From: Trichomonas vaginalis G3
Lineage: Eukaryota; Parabasalia; Trichomonadida; Trichomonadidae
Direction of reading: 5' to 3'
DNA: 64,000 bases
Assembly: GCF_026262505.1 (NCBI RefSeq)
Contig: NC_067204.1
Span: 3,939,797 to 4,003,796, forward strand
Part shown: in pieces, positions 3,176 to 62,212 of the stretch
Layout: each line of letters begins with the position of its first letter
Numbering within the stretch: the stretch's first letter is position 1
Notes under the pieces: generated by a model
The model's input: only the letters and a program-made list of their open reading frames with translations
Database searches by the model: none
What the model was told of the DNA's origin: nothing
Made by a program: the position numbers and the translations under genes

Positions 3176-4135
3176 ATGACGAATCCAAACAAGGACCCGT
3201 ATGTTTCTAAAGCGACAAAGAAAGCACTCATGGTAAAAATCTTTAGTTCAACACCAAATGCTTGGTTTATGGATATCTTGGAAAACATTCCGAGGTATAG
3301 AGAAGATGGACCACCATACTGGCTAATATTTGTCGGTCAAAACACAAGATACTGTGAAGCCATACCATTACAGTCCAAAAATATTTTAGATGTGAAAACT
3401 GCTTTGACAATATTCGTTGACAAATACCATCCAACAAAACTGACATCTGACTGTGAAAGTTCTTTCAAATCAGACGATATTAAAAACTATCTGCGTTCAA
3501 AAAATGTAAACCAATATTTCATTGTCGACCAAAACCATTCTGCTCTTGGTGTCATTGACAGTTGTATAAAAATCTTAAGAGACTTAAACCAACCACAAGG
3601 TGGTGAGGTAGATGAAATGTCATATGACGACAAGTACAGACACTTCTCCATGGCAAAGATGAGACAAGTTTTAAATATTTACAATAGCCGTAAACAAAAA
3701 GGTTTGGGAAACCACTCCCCTGAAGAAATGAAAAACAACCCTGACTTAGAGAAAGACTATATATTTAATAGTTTAGTCAAAAGAGACAAACAAGAAAGAA
3801 TGCCAGGCTTCAAACTTCAGAAAGGTGACAAAGTAAAAATAGAAATACCTAAACGCGACCCATATGAAAATACTATTGACTATGACAACAATGGGAACTC
3901 GACAGGTACTCGCATTCGTGTTCGTAAAAATAGAAGAAAGTATACAAGAGAATATTATGAAGTTTTAGGCAAACATGGCAAAATGTACAGACTGCAAGCA
4001 GAAGATAAAACTACTATTGTCAGACCTCGTTTCAAACTTGTCAAAGTTCAAGGTGGTATACTTTCAAAGACAGTTCCTAACAAATATAAGACAACTCCTG
4101 ACGAATATGCTAAAGAAGTTGAAAATGACGACTAA
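3176..4135 (+). CDS. Maverick retroviral-type integrase (319 aa, intact)
   Basis: Inserts the element into host DNA. The rve-like core spans about residues 25-150. The first acidic residue is in FMDILENIP, followed by a strand YWLIFVGQNTRYCEAIPLQ. The second is in LTSDCESSF. The third position falls in HSALGVIDSCIKILRDL, where Asp rather than Glu seems to occupy the catalytic slot. The C-terminal 100 residues (LQKGDKVKIEIP, then VLGKHGKMYRLQ) look like the SH3-like C-terminal domain of integrases. There is no N-terminal zinc-binding HHCC module. Its stop overlaps the stop of the convergent fibre gene in a shared CTAA. The other element's copy (59853-60808) is broken by at least four single-base deletions, so this may be the only working copy here. 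Confidence 0.88.
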   Translation: MTNPNKDPYVSKATKKALMVKIFSSTPNAWFMDILENIPRYREDGPPYWLIFVGQNTRYCEAIPLQSKNILDVKTALTIFVDKYHPTKLTSDCESSFKSDDIKNYLRSKNVNQYFIVDQNHSALGVIDSCIKILRDLNQPQGGEVDEMSYDDKYRHFSMAKMRQVLNIYNSRKQKGLGNHSPEEMKNNPDLEKDYIFNSLVKRDKQERMPGFKLQKGDKVKIEIPKRDPYENTIDYDNNGNSTGTRIRVRKNRRKYTREYYEVLGKHGKMYRLQAEDKTTIVRPRFKLVKVQGGILSKTVPNKYKTTPDEYAKEVENDD

Positions 4136-5421
4136 GCATTTCTATACCATGCGTAAACTGTCATGTAAGGTGGCATGTAGTCTTTACTCTGTCCCGTTGT
4201 TTCCGAATATCCTGTAATGCGATGTGTATGGCTTCCTCCTCCCTGAGTGTCATCCCAGTAACAATTTATAGCAAACTTAACGTCGTCTTTAACATCATAT
4301 CCTTTACCTTTTGTCATTCCTGTCCAATCCCAATATCTATGCTTATGCCAACCTGCTTCAGCTGTAGTTAAATTTATGTAGTGACTGTGTGCAGGTAGGT
4401 TTTCACCTGAAATCGTTTTACTTCCACCTGTTTCCTTTGAAGAGTTTGCACAATACAAAAACCTGTCGACTATTTGAGTCCAAGTTCCAAAACCAAGTAC
4501 TACTTCTGGTCTGGTAGAGTTCATTGACGTATAAATAGAACCTATAGGATATACTGTTTGAAGTATTTCTGTCTTTAATGTTTGAAGCTCTGTTTTGTCT
4601 GCTTTTTTATATAACTTTTCTTCAAGTTCATTTACGTCAGAGATGCTATGTCTATGATATTTTTGTGGGTATGTTCCTTCTGTCCATGCGAAAATACGTT
4701 CTTTTGTTGCATCTACATATCCTTTTATCCATGTCGAGTCTGCTTTTGTATTCCTTAACTCTGTAACACCTTTCTCAAGCTCTTTCAACTGTTGTCCATC
4801 TTCCATTAAACCTCTGGTATGACTTGAAACCGTTTGTGTCAACATATCTACAGTTTCTTTGTCGGCTTTAAGGTCTAAACATCCTGAAACCCACCCTGTA
4901 TTGGCTTTACCTTCTAAAATCTTCGATGTCCGTTCATGGTACCATTCAACCCTTTTTATAATTTCATTGTCTTTTTCATCCACATATTCCTTATCTGCCT
5001 TCTTCACTAACCCACTAGCCAGATATGCTAACTCATCGTCAACATACTCTTTGTCAGCTTTCTTTTCAACATCCTCTTTTGTTGCATATGTTGCATCTGC
5101 TCTGTCATGTTCTTCTTGAACTTTTTCAATGACATACTCTTTGTCAGCTTTGTTGTCAATATCTGCTTTCAAAAGAAGTTCATCTATAGGTTTCTCGTTT
5201 AAAGTTCCTTTTGTTGGATTTATACAAACAGTATGGTTCTTACTGTCTTGAAACAGAAACTCATCTGTCATTGGGTTTATCGTCAGTTTTAAGTTTCCTT
5301 CTTTCAATGACTCAGATATCTTAGAATAGTTTGAAAAGTTTGTTGTGTTCTTATTTAGAGCTTGCAAAATGAGTTGTCGGTTGTGTTGTATTTCTCTCAT
5401 AGACGCTGTTTCTTTCGACAT
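4132..5421 (-). CDS. Phage-tail-fibre/collar-like protein with ADKEYVD coiled-coil shaft (429 aa)
   Basis: Likely a receptor-binding or spike protein of the virion form. The N-terminal 95 residues (start MSKETASMREIQHNRQL) are nearly identical in the two elements. A shaft follows, built of repeated K-ADKEYVD-type units, the usual trimeric fibre register. The C-terminus, from about residue 300, carries YPIGSIYTSMNSTRP, GFGTWTQIVDRFLY, TGGSKTISGENLPAHSH and a final MPPYMTVYAWYR. I recognise this as the tail-collar/baseplate-fibre tip common in bacteriophages, with metal-binding-like HSH and HTH pairs. The shaft differs strongly from the copy at 60805-62212, while both ends are conserved. Its stop shares bases with the integrase stop. 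A phage origin is inferred from the domain type. Confidence 0.82.
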   Translation of the reverse strand: MSKETASMREIQHNRQLILQALNKNTTNFSNYSKISESLKEGNLKLTINPMTDEFLFQDSKNHTVCINPTKGTLNEKPIDELLLKADIDNKADKEYVIEKVQEEHDRADATYATKEDVEKKADKEYVDDELAYLASGLVKKADKEYVDEKDNEIIKRVEWYHERTSKILEGKANTGWVSGCLDLKADKETVDMLTQTVSSHTRGLMEDGQQLKELEKGVTELRNTKADSTWIKGYVDATKERIFAWTEGTYPQKYHRHSISDVNELEEKLYKKADKTELQTLKTEILQTVYPIGSIYTSMNSTRPEVVLGFGTWTQIVDRFLYCANSSKETGGSKTISGENLPAHSHYINLTTAEAGWHKHRYWDWTGMTKGKGYDVKDDVKFAINCYWDDTQGGGSHTHRITGYSETTGQSKDYMPPYMTVYAWYRNA

Positions 5422-21970: not shown

Positions 21971-22048
21971 AAATTGATATTTATTATTATATTAAATTAG
22001 ATCATCAGAATAAGATTTTATTTATAGAAGAACTCTCGTAAACGAAAA

Positions 22049-23039
22049 AGAGGATTTGACGCAGTCAAATCCTCTCTCTCAAAAAGTGGACTTTACATGG
22101 CAAATTTCAAATGCATGTAAGGTCCACTTTGATCAGTTTCAGGATGGAATTGGAGGCCATGAGGTACTGACATTGCATCAGTATCTCATAGCCTCCAATC
22201 CCTTCAAAAAATGGGAGAAACTTTGGTCGAATAATTTAACATTCGGCCAAAGTTTCTCCATAATTAATGAGAATGAAGGGTAAGAGGCATATAGGGTCAC
22301 TATATACCTCTTACCCTTTCATTTTCATTTGGAGGTCAAAACAACCCGGAGTTAATTGCAAACAATTAACTCCAAATTGTTTATGTTAAGGAAGGAATTG
22401 GAGGGTAAGAGGTAAATAGTATGAATATGTACCTCTTACCTGCAATTCCTTCTAGAAAGTTCCAAAACTTTGGGTTAATTGCAAACTATTAACCCAAAGT
22501 TTTGGAACTTTCAAGTGGAGATGGAAGGCTTGGGGTATATATTAATACAATATACCTCAAAGCCTTCCATCTCCACTACAAATGGGAGAAACTTTGTCCG
22601 AATAGTTTAACATTCGGACAAAGTTTCTCCCATCTTTCAATGTAATTGCTACCTGTGAGGTACTGACTTGAAGTCAGTGCTTCACAGGTAGCAATATCCA
22701 AAAATTTAAAAACATTTTATCAGTTCGTTAGAGAACTAGAGCCTCCTAGGTACTGAACCAGAATCAGTGCCTAGGGGACTCTAGTGATCTATATAAATCT
22801 GAGAAACTTTGAGGAAATTGTTCGACATTTCCTCAAAGTTTCTCAGCAATTTAGCGAGGAATGTTCGTTATCGTGTAGATATTTATAATATATACATGAT
22901 AACAAACATTCCCCGCTAAAAGATGTAAAATCTTATAAGAAATAATTGCAAAAGAATAACAAATTGCAACAAATTTTATATGAAACTGAACCTTATGAGG
23001 TAGTGATTCAAGATCACCGCCTCATAAGATTCAGTTTCA
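22049..23039. repeat. Array of 15 consecutive hairpins (inverted repeats) in four related families
   Basis: Hairpins by position: 22049-22075, 22083-22130, 22149-22199, 22214-22259, 22267-22328, 22341-22380, 22391-22452, 22455-22512, 22514-22577, 22582-22633, 22645-22695, 22735-22785, 22799-22846, 22851-22919 and 22981-23039. Stems have 10-28 pairs (25 perfect pairs at 22455-22512, 22 at 22582-22633). Loops are mostly 3-14 bases and gaps mostly below 25 bases. Related upper stems recur: GAGGTACTGA in the 3rd, 11th, 12th and 15th; GAGAAACTTTG in the 4th, 10th and 13th; GGTAAGAGG in the 5th and 7th; GTTAATTGCAAAC in the 6th and 8th. Members differ by compensatory pair changes. No protein frame is conserved across it. 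Function unknown. Confidence 0.9.
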
Positions 23040-24019
23040 ATCTCAAGTATCTCAAAAGTAAGGCTCTATTTTTTGCCATGTAAAGTGTCACTTTACTATC
23101 AAACCATTTTTATCGTTTTCGTTTACAACAGAACAACCAGTAATCCCTTGAAATATGAACATTTTAAAGAACATTTAAAATAATTGCAGAATATGCATTT
23201 CATTCTTATAATTATAGCATATAAACAAAGTGCAATGTAATCAAATACAGCATACAATGGTATTAAGCTTAAACATACATACTTAATGCTATTATCTCCT
23301 AATAATACTATAGATTTACTCTAATTTAGATTCTCAACTAACTATGAATCTATTTAATTAGCTAGATATGGAAGAAAACTCATTGGTATTGTTAACTATA
23401 AGTTATTAAATGAATTCATAAATTTATCCAACATTTCAGTTTCTAATTCGAGTTTTGAATACGTATTATATAGTTACATGTGCATATTTAAAGTAAGCTT
23501 AGACAAATATAACTAAATGAAACTTAATTCTGAGGTCTATCAAGATGTTGGAAGAAAAACTATATTAAGTTAAAGAAAAGCATTAGTGGTATTCTAAAAT
23601 TCGTCTTTGTGTGTTCATGTGTTCTATTTTATTTAGATTTCTTTATCCATTACCCTATGTCTTAATCAGATTTTGAATGGAGTTGACAATAAAGTAATGG
23701 GATTACTCAATATATCAATAACACGCGAAACAACAAGCTCAGATACTCACTCCGAATATCTGAAAACCTGTCTTGCAAATAAGGCTGTAGAAATGTCAGA
23801 GACCCACCAAGAACAATCCATAATTTTTAACATGGTTTGGAATATGATATGAGCACTATTTATAGGTGTTAAATCAATTGCTAAATCATTTGAATGTAAC
23901 CAATCGAAATCAAAAGAGCAAAATCATTTACAACTTGAAATTTAATATATTTAATATATGTGTGATTTAAAAACAAGAATTAAATTGAAGATCCATATTG
24001 AATTAAACTGAAACTGTTA
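23040..24019. other. AT-rich region with weaker, possibly decayed hairpins
   Basis: Perfect 8-bp palindrome with one-base loop at 23080-23096 (GTAAAGTG-T-CACTTTAC). A 12-pair hairpin with two wobbles is at 23256-23293, and a 13-pair hairpin with a bulge is at 23321-23361. After that I see no structure or gene until the next promoter. Confidence 0.5.
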
Positions 24020-41185: not shown

Positions 41186-41815
41186 AAACAGAAATTCATC
41201 AAAAGTGACAGCTCTCAATTTTTTGACATTTGTAAATTCTAAATTGAATGAGAAAAATGAAATAATACTAAGCATAATACAATATTCTAGATTTAATTAT
41301 AATTAGGGAAAAGTTAGTTTTGAGAGTACTTTTCATAGGCATATAGAATGAAATCTTCTGAAAAAGAATATCACATAAACTCATATTATTTTCTAATATA
41401 TAACTATTTTATATAAAAATCAAATTCAATGATCTTAAAAGCGAAGGATAAACCTCAAAATTTACGAATATAATGAGTGGGAATATTTCATATGGTTTTA
41501 TGATAGATAAGCATTATATTACCACTCATTATATTCGTAAATTTTGAGGTTTATCCTTCGCTTTTAAGATCATTGAATTTGATTTTTATATAAAATAGTT
41601 ATATATTAGAAAATAATATGAGTTTATGTGATATTATTTTTCAGAAGATTTTGTGTTCTTCTTCAAAATTTTATTTTTTTTTTATTAAAAAGAATCTTTA
41701 CAAAATATACATTTACTTTAATTAATATTTAAAAACGTGCTCTATCAAAAGTTCCAAAAATTCAATATTTTAGCTTTTCTGAGGTGTCACTTTTGATGAA
41801 TTTCTGTTTACAACA
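41186..41815. repeat. Long inverted repeat (fold-back element), arms about 130 bp and more
   Basis: Bases about 41345-41480 are almost perfectly inverted at 41520-41655, around a 40-base centre. An outer arm, AACAGAAATTCATCAAAAGTGACA at 41188-41211 (one short match region), is inverted near 41790-41813. The whole unit lies about 315 bases from the Maverick terminus. No coding sequence. It resembles a fold-back or MITE-type element. Confidence 0.8.
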
Positions 41816-52233: not shown

Positions 52234-52340
52234 AAAATAAATGGTTCATTTACTCTGTTGTGGTTCTGCAGCTTTCGGTTCTTCTGGCTTTGGAATGGAC
52301 TCGGTTGGTGGTACGTCGGACATTCGTTTGTGTCCTGTCG

Positions 52341-52735
52341 GAAGGAAGGACTTTTCCTGTCGGAAGGAAGAACTTTTCCTGTTGGAAGGAAAAACTTTTC
52401 CTGTTGGAAGGAAGGACTTTTCCTGTCGGAAAGAAAAATTTTTCCTGTCGGAAAGAAAAACTTTTCCTGTCGGAAAGAAAAATTTTTCCTGTTGGAAGGA
52501 AAAACTTTTTCTGAAGTTCGACCAAAAAGTTCTCAATTTTCGAAAATTTGAATGGTTTACGGACGGACAACTGGAAAAACTTTTCCTGTTGGAAAGAAAA
52601 ACTTTTCCTGTCGGAAAGAAAAATTTTTCCTGTTGGAAGGAAGGACTTTTCCTGTCGGAAAGAAAAACTTTTCCTGTCGGAAAGAAAAACTTTTCCTGTC
52701 GGAAGGAAGGACTTTTCCTGTCGGAAGGAAGGACT
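52341..52735. repeat. 22-bp minisatellite, two blocks (about 8 and 8 units)
   Basis: The unit is CTTTTCCTGTCGGAARGAARRA. Blocks are at about 52341-52510 and 52572-52735, separated by a 60-base unique stretch. Each unit is itself a small inverted repeat (TTTTCC and GGAAAA). Because 22 is not a multiple of 3, all six frames stay open; the frames are not genes. The whole segment is bounded by a 25-base direct repeat (AATAAATGGTTCATTTACTC core) at 52234 and 52807, so the 3' flank of the KilA-N gene was duplicated. Confidence 0.85.
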
Positions 52736-56546: not shown

Positions 56547-56920
56547 TGACAAAACATATACGAAGAAGTCATGACAAAACATATACGAAGAAGTCTTGAC
56601 AAAACATTTACGAAGAAGTCATGACAAAACATTTACGAAGAAGTCATGACAAAACATATACGAAGAAGTCTTGACAAAACATTTACGAAGAAGTCTTGAC
56701 AAAACATTTACGATGAAATCATGACAAAACATTTACGAAGAAGTCTTGACAAAACATTTACGAAGAAGTCTTGACAAAACATTTACGAAGAAGTCTTGAC
56801 AAAACATTTACGATGAAGAAGTCATGACAAAACATGTACGTTCATGTTTGACAAAACATTTACGATGAAGTCATGACAAAACATTTACGATGAAGTCTTG
56901 ACAAAACATATACGAAGAAG
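56547..56920. repeat. 25-bp tandem repeat, about 15 units
   Basis: Unit TGACAAAACATTTACGAAGA plus AGTCT or AGTCA; variants have TATACG or a GATGAAG change. The last unit merges into the right inverted-repeat arm, and a single inverted unit lies in the left arm near 55380-55402. Confidence 0.9.
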
Positions 56921-60808: not shown

Positions 60809-62212
60809 GCATTTCTATACCATGCGTAAACTGTCATGTAAGGTGGCATGTAGTCTTTACTTTGTCCCGTTGTTTGCGTATATCCTGAAACGCGATGTGT
60901 ATGGTTTCCATCTCCCTGAGTGTTACCCAGAAACAATTTATAGCAAACTGAACGTCGTCTTTAACATCATATCCTTTACCTTTTTCATTGCTGACCAATC
61001 CCAAAATTTATGCTTATGCCAACCTGCTTGAGATGTACTTAAATCTATGTAGTGACTGTGTGCAGGTAAATTTTCACCTGAAATCGTTTTACTTCCACCT
61101 GTTTCCTTTGAAGAGTTTGCACAATACAAAAACCTGTCGACTATTTGAGTCCAAGTTCCAAAACCAAGTACTACTTCTGGTCTGGTAGAGTTCATTGACG
61201 TATAAATAGAGCCTATAGGATATAATGTTTGAAGTATTTCTGTCTTTAATGTTTGAAGCTCTGTTTTGTCTGCTTTCTTCTCATATAAATCTTGAGCAGT
61301 GAATTTAACGTTTTTTTCATCCTTCATGACATAAACATCTTTACATCTAATGTTTCTCATCGTCGTTATGTTGTCATCCGATGTTAAACCTTGTGGAAAG
61401 TTAGGAGGTTTACAATATAATGCATCCCCACCAGTTTCTTCAACCGTTCCTTCAATACTTTCTATAGCAACAGTTGTAAAACTTGTATGTGTATGAGTCT
61501 TATTTGCTTTCTTCTCTAACTCATCGTTAACATAAGTTTTATCTGCTTTAAGGTCTAAACATCCTGAAACCCATCCTGTATCGGCTTTAGTTTTTAAAAT
61601 CTTCGATGTCCATTCATGGTACCAGTCAACCCTTTCTTTCATTTCGTTATCTTTTTCATCCACATATTCCTTATCTGCTTTCTTCTCTAACTTACTAGCC
61701 ACATATTCCTTATCCGCTTTCTTTTCAAGGCTAACGTTTAAGTCTGTTATTTCAGATATAGAATGTGTATGAGTCTTTTTAGAATATTCGTTTTCAGCTC
61801 TTGTCACTTCACTTGACATTTTATTGTCAACATATGTTTTGTCTGCTAGTTCAGGATGAGTATGTTCTTTTGTTGCATAAGCTTTGTCAGCTCTTTCTTC
61901 TTCTTTTGCTATTGCATCGTCTACATATGTTTTGTCTGCTTTGTTGTCAACATCTGCTTTCAAAAGAAGTTCAGATATAGGTTTCTCGTTTAAAGTTCCT
62001 TTTGTTGGATTTATACAGACAGTATTGTTCTTCTTGTCTTGAAATAGAAACTCATCTGTCATTGGGTTTAATGTCAGTTTTAAGTTTCCTTCTTTCAATG
62101 ACTCAGATATCTTAGAATAGTTTGAAAAGTTTGTTGTGTTCTTATTTAGAGCTTGTATAATGAGTTGTCGGTTGTGTTGTATTTCTCTCATAGACGCTGT
62201 TTCATTTGACAT
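60805..62212 (-). pseudogene. Phage-tail-fibre-like protein with rearranged shaft, one late frameshift
   Basis: The N-terminal 95 residues and the tip (YPIGSIYTSMNSTRP onward) are close to 4132-5421. The shaft differs: it has (T/H)HTH-containing repeats (KKTHTHSISEI, KANKTHTHTSF) and an inserted FPQGLTSDDNITTMRNIRCK segment absent from the other. A single base is missing near 60980, so the frame ends at 60938, short of the final about 45 conserved residues. The reading frame is open over 424 codons before that. It starts 18 bases from the divergent gene at 62231. Confidence 0.78.

Follow-up and report, generated by a model that had tools for sequence, protein, structure and literature searches.

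The 15 hairpins that follow one another across positions 22049-23039 of the window (the whole 64,000-nucleotide stretch of Trichomonas vaginalis G3 DNA analyzed) form the interior of a transposon. Judged from its sequence, this transposon is a non-autonomous IS481EU-type DNA element of T. vaginalis; we consider it probable that the element is mobilized in trans by an IS481-like transposase and that the arms of its hairpins are kept complementary by copying at the DNA level. Terminal inverted repeats and a 4-bp target duplication flank the array; an earlier note on this DNA had missed both.

The element spans 22034-23130 (1,097 bp, + strand), and similarity between its copies ended at these two window positions. 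Its ends, TCTCGTAAACGAAAA...TTTTCGTTTACAACA, were an imperfect inverted repeat, and GAAC flanked the element on both sides (target site duplication, left copy 22030-22033, right copy 23131-23134). The terminal inverted repeats were about 11-15 bp long with imperfect outermost bases: the left one was TCTCGTAAACGAAAA (22034-22048, + strand) and the right one TGTTGTAAACGAAAA read inward (23116-23130, - strand). The terminal bases TCT...ACA were found in the window copy, in all 40 of the 40 copies listed, and in the coding relative L077. No frame of at least 100 aa was found in 22034-23130.

Folding with DNA parameters and a limited span gave 15 strong hairpins of 12-31 pairs each across 22049-23039 (all + strand) and, in addition, a weak AT-rich hairpin at 22926-22978. 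Hairpin h01 (22049-22075) adjoined the left end and had a homologue at positions 816-844 of L077; h02 (22083-22130) followed it. The alpha class comprised h03 (22143-22205, apex GAGGTACTGA), h11 (22645-22695), h12 (22735-22785), and h15 (22981-23039), and the beta class comprised h04 (22214-22259, GAAACTTTG), h10 (22582-22633), and h13 (22799-22846). The gamma class comprised h05 (22266-22329, GGTAAGAGG), h07 (22391-22452), and h09 (22514-22577), the L024 copies of h07 and h09 being those taken for the class alignment, and the delta class comprised h06 (22339-22382, GTTAATTG) and h08 (22455-22512). Hairpin h14 (22850-22920) had 31 pairs. The right subterminal stretch (23040-23130, + strand) was common to the coding relative, with 88% identity over 67 bp, and part of it, at about 23085-23121, was the most variable part of the element among copies.

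The folding energy of 22034-23130 was -314.5, compared with a mean of -85.3 (SD 7.4) for 60 dinucleotide shuffles (z = -31.0) and with a mean of -90.8 and a lowest value of -161.6 for 56 equally long pieces from elsewhere in the window. When ungapped inverted repeats scoring at least 16 were sought with a strict scan, nine were found in the 64 kb, all nine within the element, and no equally strong hairpin in the rest of the window. The longest perfect runs were 25 pairs in h08 and 22 pairs in h10. The row of 15 closely spaced hairpins, the run of up to 25 consecutive pairs, and the families recognized by their upper stems were therefore as the earlier note had described them, and both of its examples of compensatory change (22214-22259 vs. 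22582-22633, and 22645-22695 vs. 22981-23039) were present in the sequence.

Copies elsewhere in the genome, which the earlier note had wanted to be checked, were numerous. A search of the same genome (180.85 Mb, 86 contigs) gave at least 40 full-length places, counting that of the window (40 scored of 954 candidates), and those outside the window were 96-99% identical; the 39 other scored full-length copies measured 1,092-1,103 bp. The 15-bp end motif TGTTGTAAACGAAAA had 164 genome matches, compared with 2 for its reversed control, and the inner 44 bases of h13 had 223 matches with no more than three mismatches, compared with 0 for the control; some matches of both kinds sat in larger duplicated blocks. 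On contig C4, 21 of the 40 end-motif places lay at 14-24 Mb (among the first 100 of the 164 matches listed, to 31.0 Mb). The 14-24 Mb part of chromosome IV has been named as a candidate piRNA-producing locus (PMC7845603), and C4 may or may not be that chromosome.

Target duplications were counted in 44 window-type copies and in 10 of 12 others, leaving out L073 (no end in the searched form), L074 (no left end), L045-L048, and L061. Among 41 distinct insertions, an exact 4-bp duplication was found in 31, none in eight, and a 3-bp duplication in one. The remaining insertion, L052, showed an apparent 27-bp duplication that was rejected as uninformative, its flanks being a tandem repeat; outside that repeat, no clear case of a 15-bp or 25-bp duplication was seen in the 41.

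The size of the array varied. Among 30 end-motif loci, five (L043, L044, L051, L065, and L066) carried elements of about 840-980 bp, and L055 carried one of 1,350 bp, with an equal end-to-end distance in L056 and L067. These last three had flanks identical to those of L004/L005 and elements 250 bp longer, the addition in L055, which was mapped, being a second h07-h10 block of about 250 bp. The shared flanks mark them as a single insertion carried in a duplicated block, so the array grew after insertion. Hairpin blocks had been lost in L044 and L066, the junctions falling inside the stems of h03 and h07, which are related. In L085, from a more distant set, the array consisted of two tandem units of about 249 bp, each with four hairpins, one per class in the order alpha, delta, gamma, beta.

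Strong hairpins were also seen near the copies. One lay within 1.4 kb outside the element at 8 of 33 insertions, and further clusters stood beside copies at L019:2742-3282, L006:324-553, L066:1566-1784, L004:525-1229, and L044:1559-1861, the last resembling the hairpins of the coding relative. The copies in L024, L035, L037, L044, and L051 were inside or beside other hairpin arrays. Such neighborhoods could reflect an insertion preference for hairpin DNA or mere clustering of transposons.

A related end, CGTTTTCGTATATAACA, found beside one copy, had 199 genome matches compared with 1 for the control and led to coding elements. The element at L077:801-4281 was 3,481 bp long, had ATAA on both sides, and contained a 673-aa frame. 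Its left end was 81% identical to that of the window element over 70 bp and its right end 88% over 67 bp; the ends were of the TATATACG type, differing from the exact GTAAACG ends of the window element, and no coding element with exact GTAAACG ends was found. Hairpins stood at 816-844, 902-960, 963-1025, and 1033-1081. The frame matched the NCBIfam models IS481 (E = 1.1e-24) and IS3 (E = 4e-14), both under their curated cut-offs, and Pfam rve (E = 2.9e-11). In L075, the first coding copy found, the frame matched IS3 as its sole match at E up to 0.01.

Hairpins were found on the 5′ side in six of the eight coding copies whose 5′ part was taken: L077, L087, L088, and L089 had a complete left end with hairpins, and L075 and L090 had hairpins with no left end found. 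The L078 piece had no hairpin and did not resemble the 5′ portion of L077, and L086 begins inside the element, so it cannot be judged for 5′ hairpins. Among seven pieces tied to no scored coding copy (L079-L085), arrays were present in L079 and L085 only. L042, considered as a coding partner, was rejected as a chance match of the end motif within the long frame of a gene without such hairpins. A further frame for an IS481-type transposase (246 aa; E = 1e-25 with the IS481 model) was seen at L076:910-1650; it was 40% identical to the L077 core and had relatives elsewhere in the genome.

IS481EU (Banshee) elements are DNA transposons of parabasalids, with T. vaginalis among their hosts (Kojima and Bao 2023, PMC10045372). 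They have TNT..AYA termini, their terminal inverted repeats are in most cases under 50 bp, the duplicated target is about 4, 15, or 25 bp long (4 bp only in some families), and their single DDE protein has the IS481 model as its best match; non-autonomous families exist (PMC10045372). The window element and L077 resembled them in host, TNT..AYA termini, short inverted repeats, 4-bp duplications, and an IS481-type protein, and the assignment was made because these features fit, the transposase being compared by profile scores and pairwise comparisons. The named Repbase families are IS481EU-1_TV to -10_TV, N1-N3, 4N1, 5N1, 8N1, and 10N1, and the window element may itself be one of the non-autonomous ones. 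The earlier note knew of no described family of this type, a view that is not supported: the array is the interior of an IS481EU-type transposon, although arrays go unmentioned in the main text of PMC10045372, where neither "hairpin" nor "palindrom" occurs. Among the open-licence papers searched, none was recognized as dealing with hairpin arrays of T. vaginalis, and "Trichomonas" was absent from the main text of PMC13155455.

Three other transposon assignments were rejected. Ginger1 and Ginger2 have an H2C2 zinc finger before the DDE core, and Ginger1 targets CCGG or CCGT/ACGG (PMC2836005); no zinc-finger match was obtained at E up to 0.01, and the target duplications differed among insertions, none being CCGG or CCGT/ACGG. 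A Maverick/Polinton integrase was represented in the window by an rve-domain ORF at 3176-4135, which sits among Maverick-like genes, and its comparison with the L077 core gave no significant similarity (E = 0.37).

The element was short and non-coding, with terminal inverted repeats, a target duplication, and many copies, and MITEs likewise are short, have terminal inverted repeats and many similar copies, and show no coding capacity of their own. Typical MITEs, however, are simple or consist of one long palindrome, whereas the window element was filled by 15 separate hairpins. Double-hairpin elements and REPINs are reportedly mobile hairpins of organelles and bacteria, and the window hairpins resembled them in being repeated and partly mobile. 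Those hairpins are single or double, whereas here a tandem array lies in a transposon with a DDE-type coding relative.

Related hairpins covaried, as the earlier note had proposed, far above both shuffled and slid controls. Four class alignments (A1-A4; 12, 8, 6, and 11 hairpins, hand-picked from those found) were made, their structure fixed beforehand, and their members came from window-type elements (A), shorter ones (B), more distant ones (C), and those of the coding type. Pairing was found in 92.7, 100, 97.9, and 88.4% of the cells, respectively, and both sides had changed in 16 of 27, 10 of 22, 10 of 25, and 19 of 29 pairs. The covariation score was reached by none of 500 shuffles in every class, and it dropped several-fold when the partner was slid by 1-3 columns. 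Related rows can exceed shuffles without any structure, and more weight is therefore given to the slid control and to the perfect stems of single hairpins.

Exact reverse complements of the loop or inner part of one hairpin were observed in 9 of 43 copies (L054, with large deletions, left out) and in five hairpins: h01 in L011, L026, L030, and L033; h05 in L034, with the mismatched pair included; h08 in L029; h10 in L024 and L035; and h13 in L027. Shared inversions may be inherited, so the safe count is five events. Off the hairpin axes, no exact inversion was found among 2,077 axes per copy, and the two inexact ones were both in one copy. Candidates in L032 and L038 were not counted (3 of 5 and 11 of 12 differences left, respectively), nor was an inexact inversion of a right-end mini-hairpin in L026. 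Between families, loops were found in both orientations.

Template switching is reported to make stems, compensatory changes of several bases, and loop inversions (Monttinen and Löytynoja 2022, PMC8794818). The hairpins described there also have perfect stems, multi-base compensatory changes, and inverted loops, and they belong to RNA genes (PMC8794818); those studied here belong to a many-hairpin transposon with many near-identical copies and no tolerance of G.U. The earlier note had held that template switching would not easily give related families with compensated stems. Given this described effect and its footprint in the exact loop inversions, that objection is not supported.

L054, the inverted hairpins, h08 positions 473-476, and the weak hairpin (897-949) were excluded from the substitution counts; in the later count, copies sharing their flanks were treated as one, which gave 33 insertions. 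In the first count, 84 of 716 stem positions, 23 of 113 loop positions, and 52 of 272 spacer positions were variable. The apparent deficit of stem changes disappeared, and stem conservation with it, once the hypervariable right end (consensus 1056-1092) was excluded (stem, 84 of 716; non-stem, 45 of 348; P = 0.62). The same was true of private changes (67 of 716 vs. 30 of 348, P = 0.73), and changes common to at least two insertions showed only a trend (17 of 716 vs. 15 of 348, P = 0.09). Stem and non-stem positions varied alike, and we therefore make no claim of selection on stems. Of the stem changes, 51 lay in 5′ arms and 33 in 3′ arms.

Among the 84 distinct stem changes, one compensated pair was found within the family (in L040, an A/B recombinant), and in five copies h08 remained an unrepaired mosaic, one arm being of type B and the other of type A. 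Copying between arms is thus slow and may alone be insufficient. Uncompensated stem changes, together with the like variation in stem and non-stem positions, indicate that copies decay after insertion.

These counts bear on the strongest competing explanation, that the hairpins have no function and that palindromes arise, flip, and are mended in passenger DNA through template switching and tandem duplication. It would account for the exact loop inversions, the two loop orientations between families, the equal substitution density in stem and non-stem positions, and the duplication and loss of hairpin blocks, and it draws on a process already described as a source of stems, compensatory changes, and inversions (PMC8794818). 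However, with 84 stem changes against at least five inversion events and one compensated pair, mutation appears faster than repair, and yet the family consensus stems were nearly perfect. The coding relatives, moreover, keep hairpins in the same place inside the left end, and the strict scan found no such hairpins elsewhere in the 64-kb window. We regard this explanation as a serious one that is nevertheless somewhat improbable.

In the reading that we prefer, with transposition in trans and copying between arms, the starting point would be coding relatives with a short hairpin module just inside the left end. Non-autonomous elements would have lost the coding part and expanded the module to about 10-19 hairpins, the number changing through duplication and loss of hairpin blocks, and an IS481-like transposase (rve fold, DDE) would act in trans to move the window element. 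Strand switching, or arm-to-arm copying mediated by a hairpin or cruciform, would flip loops and could transfer changes from one arm to the other, and the compensated changes may have arisen in this way. Since arm copying at the rate of the inversions would lag behind mutation, we infer that intact hairpins are favored in lineages that still move, which would give the array some DNA-level role in transposition. The trend in shared changes (P = 0.09) points weakly in the same direction.

A wider proposal is that IS481EU-type transposons carry the array as a DNA-structure module: hairpins extruded inside the left end would be read or needed by the transposition machinery, selection would act on Watson-Crick self-complementarity and not on sequence, and the module would have been amplified in non-autonomous elements until little else was left. 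We put this forward tentatively and think it rather doubtful as a whole. If true, the elements would be a natural many-copy record of template switching, in the form of flipped loops and copied arms, in a eukaryotic nucleus.

The array could also be a structured RNA, either a set of small-RNA precursors, as the earlier note had suggested, or a structured transcript of the element. The hairpins have the size of small-RNA precursors and their covariation is strong. When one base of a Watson-Crick pair undergoes a transition, G.T and A.C are equally likely outcomes. Because G.U is tolerated in an RNA stem, G.T is expected above A.C on the transcribed strand. The ratio of G.T to A.C was 12/12, 1/0, 1/3, and 11/10 in the four class alignments (25/25 in total) and 23/23 among copies of the window family. 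This equality, within and between families, speaks against an RNA stem being selected on one strand; the signal would be masked if the two strands were used equally, and the RNA reading therefore keeps a little weight. Stem changes in the copies were neither avoided nor compensated, and Rfam gave no match in the window at the gathering score. T. vaginalis reportedly possesses a pair of PIWI-like Argonautes, a gene for RNase III, and small RNAs of 34 nt mapping to repeats (PMC7845603), all of which would suit an RNA function, but these reported small RNAs are 34 nt long and map to both strands (PMC7845603). Taken together, the small-RNA suggestion is not borne out and an RNA structure is highly improbable; a DNA cruciform, the second structure that the earlier note had offered, may apply.

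Still less probable, to the point of being very hard to maintain, is that each hairpin is a tiny palindromic mobile element and that these were inserted one after another: hairpins of one class do recur with different bases, and REPINs are said to be palindromic repeats of this size that are mobile in other genomes, but gains and losses occurred in blocks joined inside related hairpins (L055, L044, L066), with no clean single insertions with duplications, and the target duplication sits at the ends of the whole element.

That an element consists almost wholly of long hairpins was a surprise, as was the combination of RNA-like covariation with DNA-like behavior. Compensatory change is widely taken to prove that an RNA is functional; in this set it was strong and yet came without G.U asymmetry, and copies showed exact loop flips, which is a warning. 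Judged by the open-licence literature, the hairpin array is a feature not yet described for this little-known group of eukaryotic transposons, and it makes testable the question of whether hairpin DNA is used in cis by a DDE transposon. Near-identical hairpins at different insertion places also provide a tool for measuring the rates of arm copying, loop inversion, and decay.

Other features were noted in the window. An inverted repeat of 136 nt, 99% complementary and with a 29-nt spacer, lay at 41351-41651, directly ahead of a group of Maverick-like genes. At 4132-5421 and 60938-62212, in two Maverick-like blocks, there were two closely similar repeat-rich (KADKEYV) proteins with a tail-fibre-like look. 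Tandem repeats were present at 52333-52730 (22 bp, 17.7 copies) and 56547-56920 (25 bp, 14.9 copies).
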